Source of the DNA: Pseudoflavonifractor sp. Marseille-P3106
GTDB taxonomy: Bacteria > Bacillota > Clostridia > Oscillospirales > Oscillospiraceae
Direction of reading: 5' to 3'
Length of the DNA: 64,000 bases
Assembly (NCBI GenBank): GCA_900169975.1
Contig: LT827119.1
Location: 62,001 to 126,000, forward strand
Shown: in pieces, positions 1,826-62,715 of the stretch
How positions within the stretch are numbered: the first letter of the stretch is position 1
How the letters are laid out: every line of letters begins with the position of its first letter
Position numbers and translations under genes: made by a program
The notes under the pieces: generated by a model
Database searches by the model: none
The model's input: only the letters and a program-made list of their open reading frames with translations
What the model was told of the DNA's origin: nothing

Positions 1826-4137
1826 TCAGGAGAGAAGCCCGGCCCTGGCAAATGCCTCCACCAGCTTTTGAGGGCTCAGGGGAAGCGTGTTGACGGCCAC
1901 ACCGGTGGCGTGGAGCAGCGCGTTGCGCACTGCCGGAGCCACCGGGATCGCGGGAGGCTCGCCCAGGGCCTTGTTGCCGAAGGGGGCGGAGGGATCTTCA
2001 GTCTCCACGAAGAGGGCGGTGAGCTCCGGGTGATCCATGGCGGTGGGGAGCTTGTAGTCCAGCAGGTTGCCGTTCAAAAGCCGGCCCTTGCCGTCGAACT
2101 TCATCTCCTCGCTGAGGGCGTAGCCCAACCCCATGGACATACCGCCGTGGACCTGGGCCTCGGCCAGCTGGGGATTGATGAGCCTTCCCGAGTCGTGGAC
2201 GTTGACGATGCGCAGCACCTTCACTTTGCCCAGGGGAACGTCCACCTCCACCTCGGCAAAGCAGCAGCCGAAGGCAAAGGTGTTGTCCCTGCACTGGTGG
2301 GTGGTCTCGGCGGCAATATGCACCGAGTGGCGGAAGGAGTAGAAGGCCTCCTGGGCCAGGTCATGGAGGGTCAAGACCAGCGCGCCGGTCCCGGCGTCCA
2401 CGATCTCCCCGTCCCGTACATCCAGCTCCTCCGCGGGCCGCTCCAGCAGCTCGGAGGCGTAGTCCAGCAGCTTGCGCTTGAACGCCTCGCCGGTCTGCTT
2501 GATGGCCATACCGGTGACGTAGGTCTGCCGGGAGGCGTAGGCCCCGGTGTCGAAGGGGGCGGTGTCGGTGTCCTGGAAGGAGACGATGTGTACCCGCGCG
2601 CTGGGGAAGCCGATGCTCTCGGCGGCCATCTGGGTGAACACGGTGTCGCCCCCCTGGCCGATCTCGGTGGCGCCCAGCTGGAGCTGCACCGAGCCGTCCT
2701 GGTTGAGCACCATCCGGGCGGAGGCGGTTTCCAGGGAAATGGGCCACACGCCGGTCTTGTAGGAGAACACGGCCATGCCCACGCCCCGGCGCACCGGGCC
2801 GGTCTGGTTTTCATATTTCTCCCGCAGCTCATCCCAGTGGATGAAAGCGCGCCCCTTCTCCATGCACTCTCTCAGGCCGGTGGAGTGGCAGGTGATGCCG
2901 TTGAAGGGATCCACATACCCCAGAGGCATGAGGTTCTGCAGCCGGAACCGGTAGGGGTCCAGGCCGAATTTCAGCGCCATATCGTCCATCATGCACTCCA
3001 CGGCGAAGTTGGCCTGAGGAATGCCGTAGCCCCGCATGGCGCCTGGGGCGGGGAGATTGGTGTAGACGGTGTATGCCTCGGAGTGGTGGCCCAGCCGGTC
3101 GGGATAGAGCTGCCGGAAGGCGGTGATGGCGTTGGCCACGATGGCGTTGCCGTGGGAGGCGTAGGAGCCCTGGGTGGAGACCGCCCGGCACCACCGGGCC
3201 ATGATGGTCCCGTCTTTGTCCACCGCGGCCTTCACGTCGAAGGAGATGGCGTGGCGGGAGCGGGTGTTCTCAAAAACTTCCTCCCGGGTGAGCTCCAGCT
3301 TGACGCAGCGCCCGCCCACCGCCCGGGTGAGGAAGGCGTTCAGAGGCTCGTACAAAACCTCCTGCTTGTTGCCGAAGCCGCCGCCGATGTATGGCTTGAT
3401 GACCCGGATGTCCCCCCAGGGGATCCCCAGGGCCTGGCCGCACACCCGCCGGACGATGTGGGGGATCTGGGTGGAGGAGACCACCACGATGCGGCCCCCC
3501 TCCATGTAGGCGTAGGACACGGCGGGCTCGATGTGGCAGTGCTGCACCATTTGGGTGGCGTAGCGGCCCTCAAACTGGAAGTAGGAGTCGCAGGCAAGCA
3601 CGTCCTCCACGCTCTGGAAGCCGCTCTCGGGGGGCATGGGGGTGCGCAGGTCCATGTGCCTGAGGATGTTGTCCGGGCACTCGTCGTGGACGGCCCGGGC
3701 GCCGGGGGCCATGGCGGCCTCGGGGGTGAGCAGGGGCTCATACTCCTCATACTCCACCCGGATGGCCTTCAGGGCCCGCTGGGCGGAGACCTCGTCCTCG
3801 GCCACCACGGCGGCCACGTCGTCGCCGTAATAGCGGATCCGGTCGGTGAGGAGCCGCCGGTCGGACACGTCCTGATGGGCGGCCTCCACGCTCCAGGGAT
3901 GGCCGGGGGTGGGATACTGGTGCCTGCGTAGGCCGCGTAAAATGGGTATAAGAGCAAGACCCCGGGGAGCCGGGCGGCCTCCTCCGTGTGGATGGATTTG
4001 ACCCGTCCGTTGGCGATGGTGCTGTGGAGCAGCTTCGCCACCAGATGGGGGCGGGGGATGAGGTCGTCGGTGTATTTGGCCCGCCCGGCGGCCTTGTCAA
4101 CGGCATCGACCCGGATCAGGCGCTTGCCAACTTCCAT
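1826..4137 (-). CDS. xdhA: Xanthine-dehydrogenase-type molybdopterin subunit, reading frame broken near 3926-3958
   Basis: Catalytic large subunit that binds molybdopterin. The start is the ATG complementary to 4135-4137, preceded by AAGGAGG. The first ~60 residues (MEVGKRLIRVDAVDKAAGRA onward) are in one frame. From about 3925 downward the protein continues in another frame (YPTPGHPW, then YYGDDVAAVVAEDEV) to 1826, with Mo-site sequences such as GGGFGNKQE, GAMRGYG and GATEIGQGGDT. The combined length of about 770 residues is normal. Total length is not a multiple of three. The break coincides with a sequence resembling a Nextera adapter, so the frameshift is probably not biological. It is the first gene of the operon, divergent from the hydantoinase. 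Confidence 0.85.
3926..3958 (+). other. Degraded Nextera transposase adapter-like segment (suspected assembly artefact)
   Basis: Ungapped comparison with the 33-base Nextera read-1 transposase adapter gives 25 identities, including the exact 9-mer GTATAAGAG of the mosaic end at 3946-3954. The xdhA frame is lost exactly here. Flanking residues on both sides fit the family, so roughly the right length of coding sequence seems to have been replaced by adapter-derived bases. The second, much clearer adapter at 49231-49292 supports this reading. Confidence 0.6.
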
Positions 4138-53151: not shown

Positions 53152-53198
53152 AAAAGATACAGCGACGGGGCCGCAGCCCTGCCGCTGTATCTTTTTTT
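53152..53198. terminator. Bidirectional terminator between the tail-anchored gene and spoIIID
   Basis: A 13-bp stem AAAAGATACAGCG/CGCTGTATCTTTT with runs of T on both strands. It ends spoIIID transcription on the minus strand and the small gene on the plus strand. Confidence 0.85.
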
Positions 53199-53207
53199 GC
53201 GCTGCCG

Positions 53208-53346
53208 TTATCTGCCTTTGTATTTTCGACGGGTGGCGATCCCGCCCCGTATGTGCCGTTCGGCCTTGTTCTCCTCCAGCACCGCCTTGGCCTGGAGGTA
53301 AAGGGGGCGGTTAAATGTGGGCAGCCGCTCCGACAGGTCTTTATGT
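53208..53346 (-). CDS. spoIIID: spoIIID, 3' part (gene interrupted by the mobile element)
   Basis: On the minus strand the sense reads CAT AAA GAC CTG and on: HKDLSERLPTFNRPL, YLQAKAVLEENKAERH, IRGGIATRRKYKGR, stop at 53208-53210. This is the second half of SpoIIID: the C-terminal part of the DNA-binding helix-turn-helix and the conserved RHLRGG-like tail (here RHIRGG). It has no start codon of its own. It begins exactly at the 5-bp core shared with the 5' part at 62482-62486, 9,140 bases away. Joining gives KSTVHKDLSERLP, the expected recognition-helix sequence. A terminator follows at 53152-53198. Confidence 0.92.
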
Positions 53347-54876
53347 TTCGTCGTGACGAATTAGAACGGTTTCGTCCAAGCCCAAATCACCGAACAGGCG
53401 CAGATAAATATCTACATTCCCGTCCTTGTCCACCTCGATCTTCTGGATGATCCGCTTGAGCTGGGCGTTGGTCATCTGTCGCACATCGGTGATGTCCTCA
53501 ATTTCCTTGAAAGTCTGTTGCAGGACGCCTTCCAGCTGCTCACCTTTTGTCAGATGGTAAGACACCATTTTCAGCTCGTTTTCCAGCCGCTCGATCTCTT
53601 TGCGCATCCCGCCGATCTTATCATTGAGTTCCTCGCGGGAGATTAAATCGTCGGCGTACATATCCATATATTTTTGCCGGGTCTTTTGCAGCCTGGCAAG
53701 CTGGGCGGTCAGTTCCTTTTCATAGTTCAGGTTTTCATCCTTTGCTTTATAGACCCGCTGGAATTCCCCCACTACATAGCGGATGACATTTTTCTTTGCT
53801 TTCAGCAGCCCGGTGAAATATTCCTGCAAAACCTCAATGAGTTCGTCCTCGTCCACCGTCACGGCGTTGGGGCAGTTGTCCGCCCCGCGCCCGTTGTGGC
53901 CGGAGCAGACCCAGCGGACATAGGTGTTTTTGTAGGTGCGGACGGTGCGCCGGAAGGACCAGCCGCACTCCTTACACTTGATGAGGGTGGAGAACAGGTA
54001 TTTGTTGCTTTGCCGTTCCTTGTCCACCTTGAACGCCTTGCCGCGGGACTGCATGATCTGCTGGGCCCGCTCAAAGGTTTCCGGGTCAATGATCCGCAGG
54101 TCTGGCCGCTCCACCACCATCCATTCCGAAGCGTCCTTGTCCGCCCGCTGGCCGGTTAAAAAGTCGGTCACTTCCTGTTTGCCATTGATGATTTTCCCGG
54201 TATAGAGTTCGTTGGTGAGGATGCGACAGACACCGTTCTGGCTCCATTGGCAGTTCCGCTTTGTCCGCAACCCCCGCTCATTGAGGAAGATGGAGATCTT
54301 TGCCGCCCCATAGCCGTCCTTAATATACCACTCATAAATCTGGCGGACAACCGCCGCTTCCTCCTCGTTGATCGCAAGGTTGAAGTAATCCCCGATGGTC
54401 TTATCATACCCGTAGACGATGTTGGGGACGCGGCCTTTTTCCGCATTCATTTTCTTACCGAACTTCACCCGCTTAGAGGTATTGGCGCTTTCTTCCTGGG
54501 CAAGGGCCCCGAAGATCGTCAGCACAAATTCGCTATTGCCCATACTGGTCATGTTGGCGGTCAAAAACTGGGTTTCGATTCCCAACGCTTTCAGCTTGCG
54601 GACATTTTGCAAGAGGTCAACCGTGTTCCGGGCGAAACGAGAAATGTCCTTGACCACTACCATGTCAAAGAGGCCGTGCTCTGCATCCGCCATCATCCGC
54701 AAAAACTCCTTGCGGTTTTTGATTTTGGTACCGGAGATGCCCTCGTCTGCGTAAAGGCGCACAAGGTTGTCCCCGGTGCGTTTGGTATATTCGGAGAAGA
54801 ATTCTTTCTGCGCTTCCAGGCTGTTAAGCTGATCTTCTTTATCGGTGGAAACGCGGCAGTAAGCGGCGATGTTCAT
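53341..54876 (-). CDS. Large serine recombinase of the spoIIID element
   Basis: A 511-residue site-specific recombinase that would integrate and excise the element. The N-terminal resolvase domain starts MNIAAYCRVSTDKEDQLNSL, with catalytic Ser in CRVST. The Recombinase domain follows (about 165-275, NLAINEEEAAVVRQIYEWYI). A zinc-ribbon has C-x2-C (LIKCKECGWSF) and a later Cys pair around VCSGHNGRGADNCPN. A long coiled coil (about 375-450) and a C-terminal tail end the protein. In the integrated state it ends HDET; in an excised circle it would read through attP to add YGSDKLERLIWAIQ. A sigma-A-like promoter precedes it. Confidence 0.95.
   Translation of the reverse strand: MNIAAYCRVSTDKEDQLNSLEAQKEFFSEYTKRTGDNLVRLYADEGISGTKIKNRKEFLRMMADAEHGLFDMVVVKDISRFARNTVDLLQNVRKLKALGIETQFLTANMTSMGNSEFVLTIFGALAQEESANTSKRVKFGKKMNAEKGRVPNIVYGYDKTIGDYFNLAINEEEAAVVRQIYEWYIKDGYGAAKISIFLNERGLRTKRNCQWSQNGVCRILTNELYTGKIINGKQEVTDFLTGQRADKDASEWMVVERPDLRIIDPETFERAQQIMQSRGKAFKVDKERQSNKYLFSTLIKCKECGWSFRRTVRTYKNTYVRWVCSGHNGRGADNCPNAVTVDEDELIEVLQEYFTGLLKAKKNVIRYVVGEFQRVYKAKDENLNYEKELTAQLARLQKTRQKYMDMYADDLISREELNDKIGGMRKEIERLENELKMVSYHLTKGEQLEGVLQQTFKEIEDITDVRQMTNAQLKRIIQKIEVDKDGNVDIYLRLFGDLGLDETVLIRHDET
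53342..53369. repeat. att site at the recombinase end (att core plus element arm)
   Basis: Core TATGT at 53342-53346, followed inside the element by an arm that ends in AATTAGAACGG at 53359-53369. The last codons and stop of the recombinase lie in this site: the stop codon TAA uses 53341-53343, so its final base comes from spoIIID. Confidence 0.85.
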
Positions 54877-54920
54877 AGCAAAACCTCTCTGTTAAAATAA
54901 AACCGTTCTGTTACAACCCT

Positions 54921-54949
54921 ATTTTATCATGTGCTGTTTTGGATTGCAA
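54921..54949 (-). promoter_or_regulatory. Sigma-A-like promoter of the recombinase gene
   Basis: On the minus strand TTGCAA (54944-54949), 17-base spacer, TAAAAT (54921-54926), 44 bases before the start codon. No sigma-E-type sequence is evident here, unlike in front of spoIIID and spoIIP. Confidence 0.6.
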
Positions 54950-54969
54950 TAGGGAAAGGGGCGCCCCGC

Positions 54970-55149
54970 TTATGCAGGGCGCCCCTCGTTTTCCTTTTTG
55001 CCGGAACCGTCCGCCGTATCTGCGGCAGACTGAATGGCAAGCTGTACCTTTTCCTGGTTTGCTTCCATAAAGATTTTCAGTAAGTAATCGGCGGTAGCTG
55101 CCGTCGGGTTAGGGTTATGGAAGCGGTAATTGAGTTTCCTCTTTTTCAC
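54970..55149 (-). CDS. Small element-encoded protein (59 residues)
   Basis: GTG start complementary to 55147-55149 behind GGGAGGTGGG, encoding 59 residues: KKRKLNYRFHNPNPTAATA, then DYLLKIFMEANQEKVQLAIQ and an acidic tail. Proteins with the RYHNPNPTA motif are common in clostridial integrative and mobilizable elements next to recombinases and relaxases. Function unknown; position beside the recombinase makes it a candidate recombination directionality factor, which is only inference. A terminator stem (GGGGCGCCC/GGGCGCCCC, 54959-54987) overlaps its stop. Confidence 0.75.
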   Translation of the reverse strand: MKKRKLNYRFHNPNPTAATADYLLKIFMEANQEKVQLAIQSAADTADGSGKKENEGRPA

Positions 55150-55233
55150 AGCAGCATTCCCACCTCCCTCTTGCTGCCTGTCCTTTGTCCATGTCTATGA
55201 AAACAAGGCGGAAAATAGTACCTGATAGGGTTG

Positions 55234-56181
55234 TCAAAGATCATGCCCCTGGTAGGGTCGCTGTGCCTGCCCTAATTCCCTGCGGATTTCCGGCGGGATG
55301 CGGTCAAGCAGCCGCTGCATATCGTGCAATTCACTTTCCAGCTTTGCCCGCTCCATGCGGTCTTTCATCTTCCCGCTTTCACTGGCCTTTGCCCTTGCTT
55401 CCAGCTTTTGATTTTCTTCCAAAAGGTCTTTGATCGTGATCTTGTACTTTTTCAGCTGCCCGGAGAAGTCCTCCATCTGCGGGAACCACTTTTTCAGCAG
55501 GGAGAGGGCTTCTTCCTTTTTCTTTCCGGCGTTCAGCGGGTTCATGCCGTCAAGGATGGCTTCAATGGCTCTGGCCTGTTTGGAAAGGGAAACCGCCTGC
55601 TTGAAAAGCCGGGTGGGGATATGCTTCCGGCCTGTCTTGCTGGCGCTCTCCCCACGCTCCAAATCCGGGTATTTCTCCACCATGTAGGCGTGAAAGTCAT
55701 CCTGCCACTTCGTCAGGTTTGCCCGGTTGCCGATGATTTCTTTGGCGCACAGGCGGTTGTCCTTTGTCAGCGGCACAAAGGTCAAATGCAGGTGGGGCGT
55801 TTTCTCGTCCATGTGTACCACAGCCGACACGATATTTTCCCGGCCTACCTGGTCAATGAGGAAATCCGCTGCCCGCTGGAAAAACGCCTGTATTTCCTTT
55901 GGGGATTTCCCTTTGAAAAACTCCGGGCTGGCGGTTATCAGCGTATCGACAAACCGTGTACTGTCTTTCCTTGTCCGGCATCCGGCCTGCTCAATTCGGC
56001 TCTGAATGAAGCGGTAATAGCGTCCCTCCGGCTTGACGATATGGAAGTTGTACTTGCTCTTGGCGGTGTCAATGTCGGGATTGCTGGCATACTGCTCTTT
56101 CTGCCGTTCGTGATGGGCTTCCAGCGGCCTTGCCGGGTTGCCCTTGTGCTTCTCAAAACGCAAAATTGCGTGTTGTGCCAT
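55234..56181 (-). CDS. MobV-family relaxase (Pre/Mob type)
   Basis: A 315-residue plasmid mobilization relaxase. It starts MAQHAILRFEKHKGNPARPL behind AAGGAG. Family motifs include the HERQKEQYASNPDIDTAKSK region and the HMDEKTPHLHLTFVPL motif with the HxDExxPHxH metal site of MobV. A coiled-coil C-terminus ends the protein (about 230-315). It should nick the oriT-like site at 62245-62283 and allow transfer by a conjugative helper. It is slightly shorter than plasmid Mob proteins, as is common in IMEs. Confidence 0.93.
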   Translation of the reverse strand: MAQHAILRFEKHKGNPARPLEAHHERQKEQYASNPDIDTAKSKYNFHIVKPEGRYYRFIQSRIEQAGCRTRKDSTRFVDTLITASPEFFKGKSPKEIQAFFQRAADFLIDQVGRENIVSAVVHMDEKTPHLHLTFVPLTKDNRLCAKEIIGNRANLTKWQDDFHAYMVEKYPDLERGESASKTGRKHIPTRLFKQAVSLSKQARAIEAILDGMNPLNAGKKKEEALSLLKKWFPQMEDFSGQLKKYKITIKDLLEENQKLEARAKASESGKMKDRMERAKLESELHDMQRLLDRIPPEIRRELGQAQRPYQGHDL

Positions 56182-56316
56182 GAAACTCCTTTCCCCATTC
56201 CTTTCCCATCCGGGGTTTTCCACAGGGAAAATCCTGCCAGAAAAAGCTCGGATAGGATTGGAATGGATAGAATCTAAATCAATCTCTTAATCTTTGTATT
56301 TCTATATACCGTCCGG

Positions 56317-56350
56317 TTTCCGTACTTCTCAAGGGTGATTTCCGTACTTC
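56317..56350. repeat. Two 12-bp direct repeats upstream of the relaxase gene
   Basis: TTTCCGTACTTC occurs at 56317-56328 and 56339-56350, 22 bases apart (about two helical turns), between the relaxase and initiator-like genes. This spacing is typical of iterons bound by a replication initiator; alternatively an operator. Confidence 0.5.
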
Positions 56351-56363
56351 ATGGGCACAGTTT

Positions 56364-56759
56364 TCAATCCTCCGGCGTACCATAACCGGATTTCTTGAAG
56401 TCGGTGTTTGAAACCGCTTCATAGGATTTTGGGTAAATGCGGTTGGGTTTTCCACAGCCCTGCTTCTGGATCTCCACCAGCCCGGCGTATTGCAGTTCCC
56501 GCAGGGTATTCACCGCCTTTTGCCGCCCACAGCAGAGCAGGTCAACCATCTCGCAGATGGGATAGTACAGATAAATCCGCCCGTACTCGTCCGCCCACCC
56601 ATTTTTCCGGGATAACTCCGCCCGTCGCAGGATAAAGGCGTACAGTAGCTTTGCCTCGTTGGATAGAGGCTGGAATGTAGGGGCTTCAAAGAGAAAATTG
56701 GGGAGCCGGGTGAAGCTGAACGCCTGTTCCGGCTGATGAATGTAAATCGTGTTTGTCAT
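56364..56759 (-). CDS. Replication-initiator-like winged-helix protein (RepA N-terminal type)
   Basis: A 131-residue protein starting MTNTIYIHQPEQAFSFTRLP. The stretch NFLFEAPTFQPLSNEAKLLY, FILRRAELSRKNGW and YYPICEMVDLLCCGRQKAVN corresponds to the N-terminal domain of RepA initiators of Gram-positive plasmids. The C-terminal part found in full initiators is missing, as often in IMEs, so it may act as regulator or as a circle-stage initiator together with the repeats at 56317-56350. Confidence 0.82.
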   Translation of the reverse strand: MTNTIYIHQPEQAFSFTRLPNFLFEAPTFQPLSNEAKLLYAFILRRAELSRKNGWADEYGRIYLYYPICEMVDLLCCGRQKAVNTLRELQYAGLVEIQKQGCGKPNRIYPKSYEAVSNTDFKKSGYGTPED

Positions 56760-56869
56760 AGCGTGTTTTGTGGACGGTTAGAAGCCCGTTTTCTGGGGTG
56801 GGCGATAGTTTATACCACCCGCCCCGGTTTCGGGCCTGTGAAGCCTGATAAATCAAGGCTTTTTTGCTC

Positions 56870-57217
56870 CTAACTGTCCACACAAGACCTCCTTTTCCGT
56901 TCACTTTCTGTTTTCTGCCGCCTGTGAACTTTGGCGGCGCAGCCGGGGCAGTATTTAGCCCGGTTGGATTTGGGGACGAATACGCCGCCGCAGACTGCAC
57001 AGCGTTTCAAGTCCTTATCCCGGAAAATCTCTGCTTCCAACGCCCCGTCCAGCGGCAAGACCGCCCACCGGAACCACTTGCAGCAGACCGAGAAAGAAAC
57101 CGTCTGCGGGCAGGTGCAGGCGTCCCCATCGTCAAGGGCAATACAGTTGCCGTCTTCACAGCAACAGCACTCCCGGCGTATCCGGGCGCTTGCCCGTTTC
57201 CGCTGCGCTGGTGTCAT
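56870..57217 (-). CDS. Cysteine-rich zinc-ribbon protein of mobile elements (cysteine-rich VLP type)
   Basis: About 115 residues from the ATG complementary to 57215-57217 (MTPAQRKRASARIRRECCCC). Clusters of cysteines (ECCCCEDGNC, CTCPQ) and a C-terminal zinc finger (RCAVCGGVFVPKSNRAKYCP) are present, the pattern of element proteins annotated as cysteine-rich VLP. The conserved VLPLD box is present. The start is uncertain: the frame is open to 57349 but its 5' part overlaps a hairpin at 57334-57370. Function unknown, probably DNA binding. Confidence 0.75.
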   Translation of the reverse strand: MTPAQRKRASARIRRECCCCEDGNCIALDDGDACTCPQTVSFSVCCKWFRWAVLPLDGALEAEIFRDKDLKRCAVCGGVFVPKSNRAKYCPGCAAKVHRRQKTESERKRRSCVDS

Positions 57218-57333
57218 GCGGTAAAGGGAACCGTCTGGCCTGCGTTCCAGCGGCGGCAAAGTTTTGGTAGGATGGATGCTGACCCCTCTTTTCTTGTTGT
57301 ATTCAACCGATTGTGAGATCAGTTTATCATGAA

Positions 57334-57370
57334 AAAATGCAATTCCCATTTTTCTGCGGGAATTGCATTT
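57334..57370. promoter_or_regulatory. Palindrome in the divergent region of the element
   Basis: A 13-bp inverted repeat AAATGCAATTCCC/GGGAATTGCATTT with an 11-base spacer, between the Cys-rich gene and the XRE regulator. It may be an operator for the regulator or a terminator of the divergent transcript. Confidence 0.55.
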
Positions 57371-57475
57371 ATGCCATCGTGTAGACCTTCAAAATTGTAA
57401 ATCTGCAATTACTGCTATTCCTAAATGTGGAATGGTGTGGTAAACTGAAAGAAATACAGGCAAGGAGGGGGAAAT

Positions 57476-58288
57476 ATGGCGGCAAAACAGTTTGAGGAAC
57501 ATCCAGGCGACCGGATTGGCGATTTGAGGACGAACCTGGGGATGACAAAGAAAGAATTGAGCCGGAAAACCGGGATCGATGCATCCCAGATCACCCGCAT
57601 TGAAAATGGCAGCCTCAACACTATCAGCAGCGATTATCTGATAAAGCTGGCAAAGGAATTGAAAACATCTACGGATTATATCCTGGGTCTTACCCCTGTC
57701 AGCGTCCCGAAAAGCTATGATATTTCTGAACTGGGCCTGTCTAATGAAGCGGTTAAAAGGCTTGTCACGGGCGCTGTCGATGTACAAATCCTCAATCGGT
57801 TGTTAGAACACAGGAATTTCCCCAAACTGATAGATTTGATACGGATATATTTTCAGGACACGGCAGCAAAGGGGATAATGGCACGAAACCAGATTATCGA
57901 GATGGCAACGGCTTCCCTGTCTGACCTGATGAAAGAACACCCGGAATATCGGGCAGGAGCAAAGCCGGATTTGCAGCTTTTGAACGCCCAAAAGATGGGG
58001 GAACATGAGGCGGAGATTGAAAAAATCAAAAATGTGTTCCTTGCCATCCTGCGAGATATTAAAAAAGATATGGATAGCGGTGGACAGCCGGGAGGAGTAG
58101 CCACCGCCGCAATGCTTCAAACCATGAGGGACGCGCTGGCTGGGCAACAGCAGGAGCCGGTGTCAATGGACGATGTGACTGCGATGATTGCTAGGCAGAT
58201 TGGGCAGATTATCCCAATGGATGAGGAAACAGCAGAGGAGTTTCAACGATTGGCGATAAAAATGATAGAACAAGTGCGAGACACCTAA
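57476..58288 (+). CDS. XRE-family regulator of the element
   Basis: A 270-residue regulator starting at ATG 57476 behind AAGGAGG. The HTH covers about residues 14-68 (LRTNLGMTKKELSRKTGIDA then SQITRIENGSLN). The remainder is helical, with QNISHG-free linker and KNVFLAILRDIKKDMDSGGQ. Such proteins repress element genes in the integrated state. It is read away from the mobilization genes and towards the restriction cargo. Confidence 0.87.
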   Translation: MAAKQFEEHPGDRIGDLRTNLGMTKKELSRKTGIDASQITRIENGSLNTISSDYLIKLAKELKTSTDYILGLTPVSVPKSYDISELGLSNEAVKRLVTGAVDVQILNRLLEHRNFPKLIDLIRIYFQDTAAKGIMARNQIIEMATASLSDLMKEHPEYRAGAKPDLQLLNAQKMGEHEAEIEKIKNVFLAILRDIKKDMDSGGQPGGVATAAMLQTMRDALAGQQQEPVSMDDVTAMIARQIGQIIPMDEETAEEFQRLAIKMIEQVRDT

Positions 58289-58397
58289 AAATGTATTCGT
58301 TTTCTATCAAAAGAATCCCTTGTGTAATTTCGCTTAAACGAATATAATATAGACAGTTAATAGCTTCTCCCCCAAAAACTCTGCTGAGGTAATATAA

Positions 58398-58592
58398 ATG
58401 AACGGATATATTACGGTTCAAGAAGCGGCACAAAAATGGGGAATAACCCCGCGCCAAGTTCAGATTCTCTGTAAAGAAGAACGTATAATTGGAGCAACTC
58501 GAATGAGTCGCATCTGGGTTATTCCAGAGAATGCAGAGAAACCGACAAAAAAACTAAAGAAACAATATCGTATGTTTAAGGAGCAAAAATGA
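58398..58592 (+). CDS. Small helix-turn-helix DNA-binding protein (64 residues)
   Basis: Starts MNGYITVQEAAQKWGITPRQ and has a MerR/excisionase-like fold (YITVQEAAQKWGI, then ICKEERI-like recognition part VQILCKEERIIGATRMSRIW). Small proteins of this type often precede restriction-modification genes in Firmicutes and may time their expression like C proteins, or act as excisionases. It overlaps the methyltransferase start by four bases. Confidence 0.8.
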   Translation: MNGYITVQEAAQKWGITPRQVQILCKEERIIGATRMSRIWVIPENAEKPTKKLKKQYRMFKEQK

Positions 58593-59461
58593 AAATGGGC
58601 GATATTACATATAAAAAAATTACAACAACCCCTATTAATCTCGATAACTCGATTATAATTGAAAGTGATGCTATACTTGCTTTACAAAAACTTCCATCGG
58701 CTTCAGTGCAGTGCATTGTTACTTCACCGCCATATTGGGGACTTCGAGATTATGGTATTAAAGGTCAAATTGGCCTGGAGGAAAAATTACAGCAGTACAT
58801 TAATAAATTAGTATCTGTTTTTGCTGAAGCAAAAAGAGTTTTACGAGATGATGGTGTGTTTTGGTTAAATATTGGTGATGGGTATACTAGCGGAAATCGT
58901 GGGTATAGAGCACCTGACAAAAAGAATCCAGCTAGAGCAATGAGTGTTCGTCCCGACACTCCAGAAGGATTGAAACCAAAAGATTTGTTAGGAATTCCGT
59001 GGAGGCTGGCCCTAGCCTTACAAGCTGATGGTTGGTTTTTGCGTAGTGATATTATTTGGAACAAACCTAATGCTATGCCAGAAAGCGTGAAAGATCGGCC
59101 AACACGTTCCCACGAATATGTTTTTATGCTTACAAAAAAAGAAAAATATTATTACGATTACCAAGCCATAAAAGAAAATGGACGCAACAAGCGCACAGTT
59201 TGGAATGTAAACACCGCGCCGTTTGCAGAAGCCCACTTTGCAACATTCCCTCCTGCTTTGATAGAACCATGTATTCTTGCCTCAACTAAAGAGAATGATT
59301 TTGTGCTTGACCCATTTTTTGGTTCTGGAACAGTTGGCGTTGTTTGTCAAGAATTTAATAGACAATTTGTTGGCATAGAGTTAAACGATGAGTATGTTAA
59401 AATTGCAAGAACACGATTGGATATTTTAGAACTTCCAGTGTTGAAAGTTGTAGGTGAATAA
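58589..59461 (+). CDS. DNA (cytosine-N4 or adenine-N6) methyltransferase, SPPY type
   Basis: A 290-residue DNA methyltransferase with catalytic motif IV CIVTSPPYWGLRDYG (about residues 44-58) before the SAM-binding motif I DPFFGSGTVGVV (about 236-247), i.e. the beta-class order. SPPY is typical of N4-cytosine enzymes. Together with the XcyI-type endonuclease it should protect CCCGGG, as in the XcyI/Cfr9I group. GC content is low, about 38 %, which sets it apart from host genes. Confidence 0.92.
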   Translation: MKMGDITYKKITTTPINLDNSIIIESDAILALQKLPSASVQCIVTSPPYWGLRDYGIKGQIGLEEKLQQYINKLVSVFAEAKRVLRDDGVFWLNIGDGYTSGNRGYRAPDKKNPARAMSVRPDTPEGLKPKDLLGIPWRLALALQADGWFLRSDIIWNKPNAMPESVKDRPTRSHEYVFMLTKKEKYYYDYQAIKENGRNKRTVWNVNTAPFAEAHFATFPPALIEPCILASTKENDFVLDPFFGSGTVGVVCQEFNRQFVGIELNDEYVKIARTRLDILELPVLKVVGE

Positions 59462-59462
59462 G

Positions 59463-60425
59463 ATGGCAATAATATTTGACTTGCCCAATACCCAGGTCGG
59501 TTTTGCTAATACATTGAAAGAATTACGAGAGACGTTTCTTCAGGATGCCTTGGCTACGACAGTTGCAGTAATGGAAATTAATATACTTGATTCAGAGCTA
59601 CATGAGTATGTTAACAATGGTTCTCTACAAACTCTTGCCACGCATGGAATGAGAGGCGAATTATTGTTTGCGGTTCCAAGTATTTTGGAAAAGAACCCTA
59701 GATTACTGGGCTATTATCGTCTTTTGCTAGGTTACAGTCAAAAAGGCTTTTACACTGCCGCCACTGGCGCAGGGATGTTCAAATCATTAGAGGAAAAGGG
59801 CTCCCTTTCGCAAAAGCAACGTAGTGCTCTACCAGAATTATGCCGAGCATTAAATCTCAGTGCAAAATATATGTTGGAGCATCTTGAGGACCAAATGATC
59901 AGTTCCGGATTCTTTGATCAGTTGACCCTTTTGACATTGGGACCACAACTTCGTGGCGGGGCTAATGTCCAAAAAGGGACTTCTGCTATTTCACAAGTAT
60001 TCGATGTAGTTTATCAAATTGTAAGCGCATCTGTTGTTCGCTCTAACTCAAGATGCATTGAATTAAAGAATAATTCAGGCCGTACCGTATACATACAATT
60101 TGCAGCTGATCCCGATATTGTGATAAGGGAAGAATTAGCAACAGACAAATACCGAAATTTAGTTGCAATCGAGGTTAAAGGAGGACAAGACTACTCGAAT
60201 ATTCACAACCGAGTGGGAGAGGCCGAAAAAAGCCATCAGAAGGCAAAAAAAGATGGTTATGTAGAGTGCTGGACAGTAGTTAATGTTGACCGCATTGATA
60301 TGAACATGGCACAAAAAGAATCTCCGACTACAAACAAATTTTACCGAATATCTGAACTTTTGAATCAAAGCAGCGCTGAATATAGAGATTTTTCGTTGCA
60401 AATTTTATCTATTGCAGGCATTTAA
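59463..60425 (+). CDS. XcyI-family type II restriction endonuclease
   Basis: A 320-residue restriction endonuclease. Family landmarks are GMRGELLFAVPSILEKNPRL, YYRLLLGYSQKGFYTA, the LGPQLRGGANVQKGTSAI stretch and the catalytic region DPDIVIREELAT with IAIEVKGGQDYSN (PD...ExK), ending EAEKSHQKAKKDGYVECWTV. XcyI and relatives cut CCCGGG; the same specificity is likely but not proven. The ATG at 59463 with AGGTG upstream is one base after the methyltransferase stop. Confidence 0.92.
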   Translation: MAIIFDLPNTQVGFANTLKELRETFLQDALATTVAVMEINILDSELHEYVNNGSLQTLATHGMRGELLFAVPSILEKNPRLLGYYRLLLGYSQKGFYTAATGAGMFKSLEEKGSLSQKQRSALPELCRALNLSAKYMLEHLEDQMISSGFFDQLTLLTLGPQLRGGANVQKGTSAISQVFDVVYQIVSASVVRSNSRCIELKNNSGRTVYIQFAADPDIVIREELATDKYRNLVAIEVKGGQDYSNIHNRVGEAEKSHQKAKKDGYVECWTVVNVDRIDMNMAQKESPTTNKFYRISELLNQSSAEYRDFSLQILSIAGI

Positions 60426-60463
60426 CCTTCACTAGATATTATTTGCAAAAACGAGGTGTTGGT

Positions 60464-62101
60464 ATGCCACGAAAGAGAGACGATAAACCGCTCTATGACT
60501 ACAATATATACCGCATTCTTCCAGAAAAAGCAGAGAGCTTCAAGTCGTTCTTGGAAGATCGAAGATTTGAAGAAATACCATTGAAACCGGAGTGTATTCA
60601 AAACCCCTCTGGATATACATTTACCCTCATGTTTTGCGATAAAGACAACCGAAAGGGCTCTCCTTGGGTAAATTTATTATCCACCTGTACCGAATGGGAT
60701 TTGAGCCAAGAATTAAAAATATATGGAGCAGCCTTAATTTGTTATAGGGAAGACTCTTGTTTTGTTGTTTCTTATGGCAATGCACACTTTTATGTGAGCG
60801 ATTATTGTGATTTTAATTTTGGAGTGGCTGTTGCAGAACGACTAATTGATTTAGACCAGGTTCGAGCACAACAAAATATTTCTCATGGTAGCAAGCTAAG
60901 TAAAATGCACATGGATTACTTGGGCGGTACAGTGCTGTCCTATCGTAGCGGAGAGATACCTACCTATATTCGAGGAACAAGTCTTGATCCAGAGTTATGG
61001 GGAACTACTATTAACTGCGGCACCTCTGCACAATTCAAATGGGAAGAGAAGCCAACTGAAATCGGCGAAAAATTGAATCTCCTAAATGAAATAATAAAAG
61101 CAGATAGCTCGATTTCTCTACCGAGATTAACTTTTTTGGATGTAGAAGAAGATGCAGAAAAAATTGAAAGCCTTTATCATCAATTAGCTGTTGCTATTGA
61201 GCAATATGACGGAGCCGCTAACGATGGAAACTTAATAAATGTTCCATCTTTCTACATGATGGGAACACGGCTAATACAGAACGATTCTGTCCGTTTCAAA
61301 TTAAGCTGTAATCATAAAAGCCTTGAATTCGATGGTGAATTATCCATAACTGCAATTAATGAGTTTGTTAGGGAAAAAGAATTTGCGCTACAAGAAGTAA
61401 TTCAGAAAATTAACATCTCTATTGAATACGCCAATGATGCATGGACAAACCGCAAACCTATCACGGAGTATCTGGAATTTATCACAGAAGATAATTTTTG
61501 CTTGCGCAATGGCAAATGGTGCTCCTTTAACATTGCATATCTTGACCGTATCTTCCAAGAAGCCAAAAGGGTTGCTTTTATAAATCATTCTCAAGACGAG
61601 TTTGCACTATCTAAAGACGATGTCATTCAATTTGCAAGGGAAAACGGTTTTTATGACGAAACAAACAGCAGGCAACCATATGAAACTTTCTACAATCAGA
61701 ACATTTCGCAGCTGATAGGGGCAATTTGTTTACACCCGCGAACCGTACCTGTTGATCCGGAAGGTAATGGCCGATACAGATATGAAGTGTGCGACTTTTG
61801 CAAGGATCAGACCCTATACTTTGTGAAGATAGGAAAGCCGAATGATTTTGCGTATGCCATTGACCAAGCTATGCTGACACTCGAAAAATGTGAAGCAGGT
61901 ATGGGTTCTTTAACATTGCCAGGAGATTTAGCTGTTTCTCCCACAGAGTTTAGAATGGTATTAATCTTTGATGGGCGTGCTAATATGGTAGAAAAATGGG
62001 AAGATGTTTTTTCTATCAATTTCCTTATCCATCTAACAGAATTGAAGCGGCGTTTGAGCAGTACAGACATATCTCTTACAATCGATTTTGTTTACTGGTG
62101 A
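60464..62101 (+). CDS. TIGR04141 / DUF6119-like protein next to a restriction system
   Basis: A 545-residue protein. The N-terminal part YNIYRILPEKAESFKSFLED and the segment YGNAHFYVSDYCDFNFGVAV then RLIDLDQVRAQQNISHGSKL resemble sporadically distributed TIGR04141/DUF6119 proteins that often occur in defence loci. No catalytic motif is obvious to me. AT-rich like the two genes before it, with 38 bases between, so cotranscribed as a third member of the restriction operon. Its role (endonuclease accessory, anti-phage or other) is unknown. Confidence 0.75.
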   Translation: MPRKRDDKPLYDYNIYRILPEKAESFKSFLEDRRFEEIPLKPECIQNPSGYTFTLMFCDKDNRKGSPWVNLLSTCTEWDLSQELKIYGAALICYREDSCFVVSYGNAHFYVSDYCDFNFGVAVAERLIDLDQVRAQQNISHGSKLSKMHMDYLGGTVLSYRSGEIPTYIRGTSLDPELWGTTINCGTSAQFKWEEKPTEIGEKLNLLNEIIKADSSISLPRLTFLDVEEDAEKIESLYHQLAVAIEQYDGAANDGNLINVPSFYMMGTRLIQNDSVRFKLSCNHKSLEFDGELSITAINEFVREKEFALQEVIQKINISIEYANDAWTNRKPITEYLEFITEDNFCLRNGKWCSFNIAYLDRIFQEAKRVAFINHSQDEFALSKDDVIQFARENGFYDETNSRQPYETFYNQNISQLIGAICLHPRTVPVDPEGNGRYRYEVCDFCKDQTLYFVKIGKPNDFAYAIDQAMLTLEKCEAGMGSLTLPGDLAVSPTEFRMVLIFDGRANMVEKWEDVFSINFLIHLTELKRRLSSTDISLTIDFVYW

Positions 62102-62464
62102 GTTTTATATACCTGCTGCCACTCCCGAAACCGCCCAGCTTTTTGCTCACCCCTATCCGCAAAAACCTGTCCGTTTTCCTGCCGGGCAAAGTGAGCGTTT
62201 CCATCCGGCGAAACTCTCATTTTACCCGCCAGCCGTGACAGCAGGTATAACACACTACACTTTGCGTTGCAAAGTCGTGTGCCAAAGGGGAAGCCCCTTT
62301 GGAAACCCCGATTTTGTCGGGAAGCTGGTACAGCCTGCATAGGTGCAGCTGTACCCCTTCCTTCCAAAACGAAATAGGCGGCATAGGTCAGCCCGTCCCC
62401 GGTGCTGATCTATGCCGCCTATTTGCTTATATGGGCGCTTACTGTATCGCCCATATCAACCGTT
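62102..62464. other. Right end of the element: oriT-like site and hairpins
   Basis: No gene is supported. The region holds the oriT-like site (62245-62283), a palindrome GGTACAGC/GCTGTACC near 62328-62356, and a long terminator-like hairpin AAATAGGCGGCATAG and complement at about 62370-62423, which would end transcripts of the cargo operon and protect spoIIID-direction reading. Confidence 0.6.
62245..62283 (-). promoter_or_regulatory. oriT-like site of the pMV158/MobV type
   Basis: On the minus strand: GCACACGACTTTGC, a short loop, GCAAAGTGTAGTGTGTTATAC. It matches the pMV158 origin of transfer, which has ACTTTAT loop ATAAAGTATAGTGTGTTATAC, including the nick region TAGTGTG/TTA. The hairpin ACTTTGC/GCAAAGT precedes the nick site as in MobV plasmids. 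The relaxase gene is in the same element but about 6 kb away. Confidence 0.85.
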
Positions 62465-62486
62465 CTAATTTATCACTTCCGTATGT
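62460..62486. repeat. att site at the other end (element arm plus att core)
   Basis: The arm CCGTTCTAATT at 62460-62470 is the inverted complement of AATTAGAACGG at 53359-53369; the core TATGT is at 62482-62486. In the circular form the two arms would flank the core symmetrically in a site of about 50 bp, the size of serine-integrase attP sites. Confidence 0.85.
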
Positions 62487-62596
62487 ACGGTCGATTTGCT
62501 GACGCCGAACTTGGCCGCGGCCGCGCGGACGGTGGCCCGGTTCTCTATGATGTACTGGGCGAGCCGGACGGCCCGCTCCTCCATGTTCCCTTTCAC
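62465..62596 (-). CDS. spoIIID: spoIIID, 5' part (gene interrupted by the mobile element)
   Basis: Starts at GTG (62594-62596), 8 bases after GGGGAG. It encodes (V)KGNMEERAVRLAQYIIEN, then RATVRAAAAKFGVSKSTVH, after which the element adds TEVIN and a stop at 62465-62467. This is the N-terminal part of SpoIIID, up to the recognition helix of its HTH. Joined to the part at 53208-53346 it gives an 82-residue protein, close to the 84-93 residues known for SpoIIID. A sigma-E-like promoter precedes it. In the integrated state only a truncated 43-residue product could form. Confidence 0.92.
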   Translation of the reverse strand: MKGNMEERAVRLAQYIIENRATVRAAAAKFGVSKSTVHTEVIN

Positions 62597-62629: not shown

Positions 62630-62657
62630 GGTATATGTGGCACAGTCAGAAAATATG
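62630..62657 (-). promoter_or_regulatory. Putative sigma-E promoter of spoIIID
   Basis: On the minus strand CATATT (62652-62657), a 14-base spacer and CATATACC (62630-62637), close to the sigma-E consensus. Sigma-E drives spoIIID in Bacillus. It lies 33 bases before the GTG start. Confidence 0.7.
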
Positions 62658-62715
62658 AAACGCCCGAGCGCTTCTTTAAAGGCCCAACCGCATCTGCGGC
62701 AGCGCGATGTGGCCG

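Follow-up and report, generated by a model that had tools for sequence, protein, structure and literature searches.

spoIIID is a recurrent target of a large serine recombinase unit in Clostridia

Sporulation genes cut in two by inserted DNA are known as scattered cases, namely sigK, spsM, spoVFB, spoVR, gerE and yabG (PMC6957869, PMC10747680). We describe a further target, the sporulation regulator gene spoIIID. In a stretch of 64,000 nucleotides from Pseudoflavonifractor sp. Marseille-P3106 (GCA_900169975.1, contig LT827119.1, positions 62,001 to 126,000; hereafter the window), spoIIID is interrupted at a single codon, STVH|KD (H34|K35), by 9,140 bp with ACATA at either end. The split is real and recurrent, and spoIIID is a new target of a widespread recombinase unit of the kind that is found in skin, the element in sigK. 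No report of an element in spoIIID was found in the open-access literature, most subscription papers and all preprints lying outside the scope of that search, and the word spoIIID is absent from the main text of a recombinase catalogue in the part available (PMC10083194).

The split gene and its recurrence

An earlier note made from the letters of the window had claimed that a 9.1-kb element divides spoIIID, that a 5-bp core would join the halves into an 82-residue protein and that the element encodes a serine recombinase, and all of this is borne out. Both halves lie on the minus strand. The N-terminal half (62465..62596; PF12116, E 7e-14) starts with a GTG at 62596, or alternatively with an ATG at 62584, and ends ...GVSKSTVH (H34) at the core, past which the frame runs through five further, foreign codons to a stop at 62465. 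The C-terminal half (53208..53345; PF12116, E 1e-16) reads HKDLSERLP...KYKGR to its stop. Each half separately exceeds the PF12116 cut-off. The copies of the core at the N-half and C-half junctions occupy 62482..62486 and 53342..53346, respectively, on the minus strand. Joined at the core, the halves are in frame and give 82 residues from the GTG or 78 from the ATG, and the product matches the solved SpoIIID of B. subtilis (2l0k) over its full length (E 8e-22). The cut falls in the helix-turn-helix (HTH). On the same strand, a sigma-E-like motif (CATATT...CATATA; 62630..62660) lies upstream of the gene, and a terminator-like hairpin (53152..53195), read in the sequence and unscored, follows the C-half. 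The earlier note had also raised the matter of an intact copy elsewhere. A PF12116 profile search of the whole genome (3.12 Mb, 20 contigs, 99% complete) returned the two halves only, a further match in a 377-aa open frame being sub-threshold (E 0.01).

Is the window a single case? We searched 400 genomes of the same family for PF12116 (our handles G, C and L denote genomes, contigs and loci) and obtained matches in 326 of them; 74 had no match at all. Genomes with a single strong match were counted as intact without inspection, and the follow-up covered 36 whose matches were weak or multiple and 11 in which a strong match was accompanied by another. Twenty-six of the 36 are splits at the H34|K35 codon with element arms, of which 14 have both halves on one contig, six have them on two contigs, four have the C-half only and two the N-half only. 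The remaining ten are ambiguous (G095, G108, G318), pieces at contig edges (G111, G136, G259, G288), intact (G164) or weak unrelated matches (G350, G391). With the window included, 27 of the 400 family genomes are split, belonging to 23 genera, and several have intact congeners. In each of the 15 same-contig pairs the cut is at H34|K35 and the halves can be joined in frame; this identity of the cut excludes chance as the cause of the split. The DNA between the halves varies in cargo and in length, from about 2.6 to 53 kb: 11 one-piece elements measure 2,565-19,192 bp, and four longer ones about 20-53 kb by match positions. In a survey of 394 genomes at the level of the order, split-like PF12116 patterns occurred in eight further families, as judged from match patterns alone. 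The earlier note had called for relatives to be searched for intact and interrupted spoIIID. The split does recur among them, and the note's view of a single element proved too narrow, there being many elements in many genera.

Several of the split genomes are metagenome bins with the halves on separate contigs, as would be expected if the splits were assembly artefacts or came from chimaeric bins. This explanation is refuted by the recurrence, that is, by the same cut and arms in 15 same-contig pairs and by isolate records in which a C-half junction occurs (among them Flavonifractor sp. An82, Angelakisella massiliensis and Schaedlerella arabinosiphila), and we give it practically no credence.

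Other junctions were also seen at spoIIID. A second class, KD|GGTGGTGTCATAATAAGAATAG, lies six bases on and is found in L373 (G095), L107 (G278) and L111 (contig C159 of G058), whose contigs end there; perhaps an unrelated mobilizable element also targets spoIIID. Stray extra copies of the spoIIID N-half that end at or near the core occur in G278 (L094/L107), G262 (L095/L105), G211 (L096/L108), G124 (L097/L109), G015 (L110) and G058 (L111). In G278 and G262, the shared segment extends over about 200 bp, promoter region included, with 94-99% identity to the intact gene, and in G262 the stray copy and the gene are inverted on one contig.

The recombinase unit

The window element encodes a large serine recombinase (53341..54876, minus strand; 511 aa when integrated) with the domains PF00239, PF07508 and PF13408, and its nearest solved relatives include SprA. 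Recombinases 43-94% identical to it are carried by 15 other elements. In 15 of these 16 elements the gene ends at the C-half or at most about 30 bases from it, the exception being G254, in which the recombinase, its start missing, lies beside the N-half. A scan of GTDB contigs with the family confirmed at least 376 relatives, of which the best 80, all at least 80% identical, were kept. A SpoIIID C-half lies within 300 bases of the recombinase in 73 of these 80, and three more adjoin one by inspection (L150, L185 and L156, the last cut by the contig end); the contig of L160 ends too soon, and L127, L134 and L144 are located elsewhere. In total, 76 of the 79 assessable relatives among the best 80 adjoin a SpoIIID C-half. 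This is a spoIIID-specific family of large serine recombinases, used by mobilizable, phage-like and metabolic elements, and its targeting of spoIIID explains the recurrence of the split.

By their record titles, the relatives come from Oscillospiraceae, Lachnospiraceae (Blautia, Roseburia, Schaedlerella), Agathobaculum, Anaerotignum and [Ruminococcus] torques; the tree tool puts a further pair (L137, L165) in Bacteroidota, which is taken for a slip in binning or naming. A quick tree, with support that is often low, mixes species and families near the window protein, and the recombinase of L125 is 100% identical to that of the window and adjoins a different C-half. Thus the unit moves. As for a phage origin of the whole family, the case is weak, since the best 80 viral contigs hold one close relative (L205, 72% identical; next 46%); the 569 phage records and 541 plasmid records with a match are all below 60% identity. 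Two frames deserve separate mention. In G368 (L082, 13730-15412), the recombinase frame continues into the SpoIIID C-half to make a 560-aa fusion frame. The human faecal record L344 (MT838016.1), although filed as bacteriophage, contains a recombinase of the family beside a SpoIIID C-half at 3626-3763 and is therefore at least partly bacterial chromosome.

The attachment site is the spoIIID codon pair H-K. On the minus strand, attL (62460..62488) has the element arm ...CTAATTTATC with a GAACGG half-site, and attR (53338..53369) has an element arm with a CCGTTC half-site. The arms, CCGTTC-N17-ACATA and ACATA-N17-AACGG, are imperfect inverted repeats about the core, agreeing at 34 of 50 positions. 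The recombinase frame crosses attP, and on integration its last 14 residues are consequently replaced by a stop that the host completes (ACA|TAA in the window). The codons YGSDKLERLIWAIQ-stop (62439..62486, minus strand) would extend the protein to about 525 aa in the circle, which is predicted to restore the 14-residue tail of a 525-aa recombinase. In 33 of 37 arms, the N-side codons T/A-Y/Q...E-R are preserved in the recombinase frame. The phage contig L205 (62.4 kb) has a contiguous attP with the core GCATA, spanned by a recombinase open reading frame (ORF) of 528 aa with a small ORF and motif upstream. It was missed by the pattern CCGTTC-N17-ACATA-N17-AACGG because of its core; the five viral contigs that this pattern does match are taken for chance hits given the size of the collection.

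The rest of the window element is as follows. On the minus strand, the recombinase is preceded by a 59-aa ORF (54970..55149), a candidate recombination directionality factor, with a sigma-E-like motif, GGTACTATTTT-N-TTTTCATAGACATGG, ahead of it (55183..55222), and then by genes for a MobV/Mob_Pre relaxase (55234..56223), a RepA_N replication protein (56364..56759) and a Cys_rich_VLP protein (56870..57349). The plus strand encodes an HTH regulator (57476..58288), a small HTH protein with a weak excisionase-like PHROG match (58398..58592), an N6/N4 DNA methyltransferase (58589..59461), an XcyI-type restriction endonuclease (59454..60425; PF09571, E 1e-117) and a DUF6119/TIGR04141 protein (60443..62101). 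This gene content, with its recombinase, MobV relaxase, RepA_N, XcyI-type restriction-modification pair and DUF6119 protein, marks the 9.1-kb segment as an integrative mobilizable element, kept in place by a site-specific recombination unit that consists of the recombinase, a small partner protein and attP. Coupling or VirB4-like families were not found among the 10 ORFs of the element that were scanned, in which MobV is present. The G+C content of the element is 46%, lower than in its flanks, which have 63% over 13 kb on the C-half side and 51% over 1.4 kb on the N-half side. No relatives of its relaxase, RepA_N and VLP proteins were found in other spoIIID elements by tblastn.

Excision and the state of the split gene

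What would take the element out of spoIIID, and when? We think it probable that sigma-E drives its excision in the mother cell and so restores spoIIID, as in skin but a step earlier. In this scheme, sigma-E would drive expression of the small ORF in the mother cell, the small partner protein would turn the recombinase to attL x attR, the element would leave as a circle, and spoIIID, behind its own sigma-E-type motif, would become whole. The forespore chromosome would retain the element, which would thus be inherited. The directionality factor of the C. difficile skin element requires sigma-E and SpoIIID (PMC5025042). As SpoIIID is the very product that is missing here, sigma-E alone is the logical driver. 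The role of the small ORF as directionality factor, its control by sigma-E and the confinement of excision to the mother cell are the parts that we infer. The interpretation in the earlier note is partly supported: its skin-like logic holds, scheduled excision is still a prediction, and further support comes from the spoIIID-specific recombinase family, the small ORF with its sigma-E-like motif, the constrained C-halves and the phage attP.

An ORF of about 59 residues (KKRKLNYRFHNPN...EANxxKV) lies upstream of the recombinase on the same strand in 75 of 96 loci. Its profile matched in 10 of 120 family genomes, nine of which are splits, the tenth being G110 (E 1e-4). The 59-aa ORF of the window has no match in Pfam, NCBIfam or PHROGs, and the profile gave nothing of note against PDB sequences, SprB included (best E 0.6). 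It is the putative excision (directionality) factor. The sequence ahead of it in the window is GgacTATTTT-N-TTTCATAG. The pattern NNNTAW-N14-16-CATA, which was defined after the regions had been read, occurs upstream of the small ORF in 64 of 71 regions (4 of 75 were excluded as too short) and, without near-duplicates, in 47 of 54, against 5.0 ± 1.9 in dinucleotide shuffles. In sets that did not shape it, the pattern was found upstream of spoIVA in 17 of 29 (1.8 expected; 30 loci given). It likewise precedes intact spoIIID (23 of 37, 3.4 expected; 40 given) and split spoIIID (10 of 14, 1.4 expected; G015, having no upstream DNA, was left out). It is enriched neither upstream of the recombinase where the small ORF is far (8/35 vs 6.1) nor inside recombinase coding DNA (8/80 vs 4.5). 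A SpoIIID box downstream of the motif shows weak enrichment (12/54 vs 1.8), and we rest nothing on it.

Do the halves look like those of a living gene? The C-half frame is whole in all 75 named loci (60 by pattern, 15 by eye), and the 16 C-halves of the family survey are also free of stops, one of them running off its contig. For the C-half, comparisons of split with intact species give a pooled pN/pS of 0.106 and comparisons within the intact species one of 0.096, values drawn from short sequences and from pairs sharing members in five genera (g22, g29, g74, g5, g64), the window's congeners having been missed by the strict pattern. Moreover, spoIVA is present in 26 and SASP in 22 of the 27 split genomes (the window's own spoIVA being split), compared with 26 of 28 intact genomes for each; the absences may be due to incomplete bins. 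If the elements were dead relics, the gene having been broken once and its halves left to decay, one would hardly find so many readable C-halves, nor recombinases most of which span the full alignment. The loss of the first residues of the recombinase in G254 and G038 is what decay would produce; the intact frames largely refute this explanation all the same, and we regard it as very improbable.

Ordinary mobility, in hosts that would often manage without spores, is the main competitor. According to it, these are mobile elements that sit at a conserved sporulation gene and excise rarely or on stress, and their carriers are defective in sporulation, a defect that would have no cost or a mild one in the gut. 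The mobility genes of the window element agree with this, as do near-identical recombinases in different species and families, the lack of any SpoIIID match in 74 of 400 family genomes and the fact that a second sporulation gene, spoIVA, is split in the window genome (see below). It does not account for the sigma-E-like motif ahead of the small ORF, for C-halves as constrained as in intact species, for the general retention of spoIVA and SASP or for what seem to be sole copies of metabolic genes within some elements. On balance we judge it unlikely.

Sigma-E-driven excision in the mother cell is the reading that we prefer, and several observations weigh against it, including the late definition of the motif pattern. 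A stricter pattern that was fixed beforehand occurs in 10 of 72 regions, with 0.9 expected, and the -35 element of the small-ORF motif is CTATT, compared with ATATT in the host form. The small ORF is lacking in 21 of 96 loci, nine of which have less than 1 kb of contig before the recombinase, and in G033 and G035, two of the nine splits with a small ORF, the match is on the strand opposite to the C-half. The attP pattern, restricted to the core ACATA, occurs in 0 of the 400 family assemblies. Recombinases of different species are 96-100% identical, and for this reason some insertions may be too young to show decay. Finally, the split spoIVA of the window genome also fits a lineage that gave up spores.

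Stacked cuts, cargo and known systems

In the window genome, the halves of spoIVA lie about 252 kb apart at C20:236830-237291 and 489485-490537 (L315, L316). An ORF of 644 aa with a serine-recombinase motif adjoins the C-half, and phage-like ORFs were noticed inside by eye; the insert may be a giant prophage that occupies a further mother-cell gene. Joining the spoIVA halves at their longest shared string gave the wrong frame and was rejected; inspection by eye points to a shared core of no more than about GG. A search for sigK in 13 genomes gave two halves at a distance of 7 kb on one contig in G150 (C4:133835-141469) and halves on different contigs in G029 and G368, all of these profile matches being below the cut-off of that family. 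In these three genomes, in which spoIIID is split and sigK seems to be split as well, two excisions in one cascade may be needed.

Among the products encoded between spoIIID halves are an FtsK/TrwB-like coupling protein (G015), a baseplate protein (G368) and GGDEF/EAL and CheB/CheR proteins (G182). In G058 the cargo includes an apparently complete F1Fo ATP synthase operon (L074, 1213-7436), of which alpha and gamma were recognized by profile and the other genes by eye; no second F-type gamma match was found in this 94% complete assembly. In G044 a riboflavin operon is inserted (L072, 1857-5256), with ribBA recognized by profile and its other genes by eye. A second DHBP synthase match was not found in that genome; this copy is 57-60% identical to those of seven congeners, which are themselves 73-94% alike. 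It is for the cargo of G044 and G058 that excision in the mother cell only would matter most, because loss from the germ line would cost a pathway. A wider picture can be offered tentatively, with a little more doubt than confidence: spoIIID would be a general landing site in Clostridia for a sigma-E-wired recombinase unit, and, the cut being mended in the doomed mother cell, almost any DNA could live there cheaply. The mother cell would then delete even basic metabolic genes, in some lineages apparently their sole copies (riboflavin in G044, F1Fo ATP synthase in G058), resembling programmed DNA elimination, with stacked cuts in spoIIID and sigK or in spoIIID and spoIVA.

Across 23 genera of one family, and in other families besides, a single recombinase family has occupied one and the same codon of an early regulator, with mobilizable, phage-like and metabolic cargo. 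If excision is developmental, spore formation in gut Clostridia would commonly be controlled at this level too, caution would be called for in naming such genomes asporogenous from annotation, and an order of excisions, spoIIID before sigK, would become testable. The recombinase might also be put to use, together with its att sites, for integrating DNA into commensal Clostridia.

How does the spoIIID unit compare with known systems? With skin in sigK of B. subtilis and C. difficile it shares a serine recombinase, a small directionality factor (a candidate one here) and a split mother-cell regulator; excision in the mother cell is established there and predicted here (PMC5025042). It differs in its target, which is one step upstream of sigK, and in that a single recombinase family is used by many unrelated elements across many genera. 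Like the spoIIID element of the window, gin in gerE of B. cereus is a non-phage element with restriction-modification and a serine recombinase that splits a small regulator gene, but the gene is another one, gin has three recombinases and 28.6 kb, and its excision has been demonstrated (PMC5595907). SPbeta in spsM (SprA/SprB) and the idea of an SSR unit, in which recombinase, factor and att sites are interchangeable between elements of different kinds (PMC6957869), offer a further parallel, and the spoIIID unit is of this sort; its target gene differs, and its small ORF has no relative in PDB sequences, SprB included. A serine-recombinase element, yin, also occupies yabG, a conserved sporulation gene, in the clostridial species C. 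botulinum; it was reported as unique to one strain (PMC10747680), whereas the spoIIID unit is widespread. With integrative mobilizable elements, the window element has in common a relaxase, RepA_N, restriction-modification and a serine recombinase within 9 kb, and it is set apart from them by an att site in the middle of a developmental gene and by the sigma-E-like motif ahead of its small ORF.

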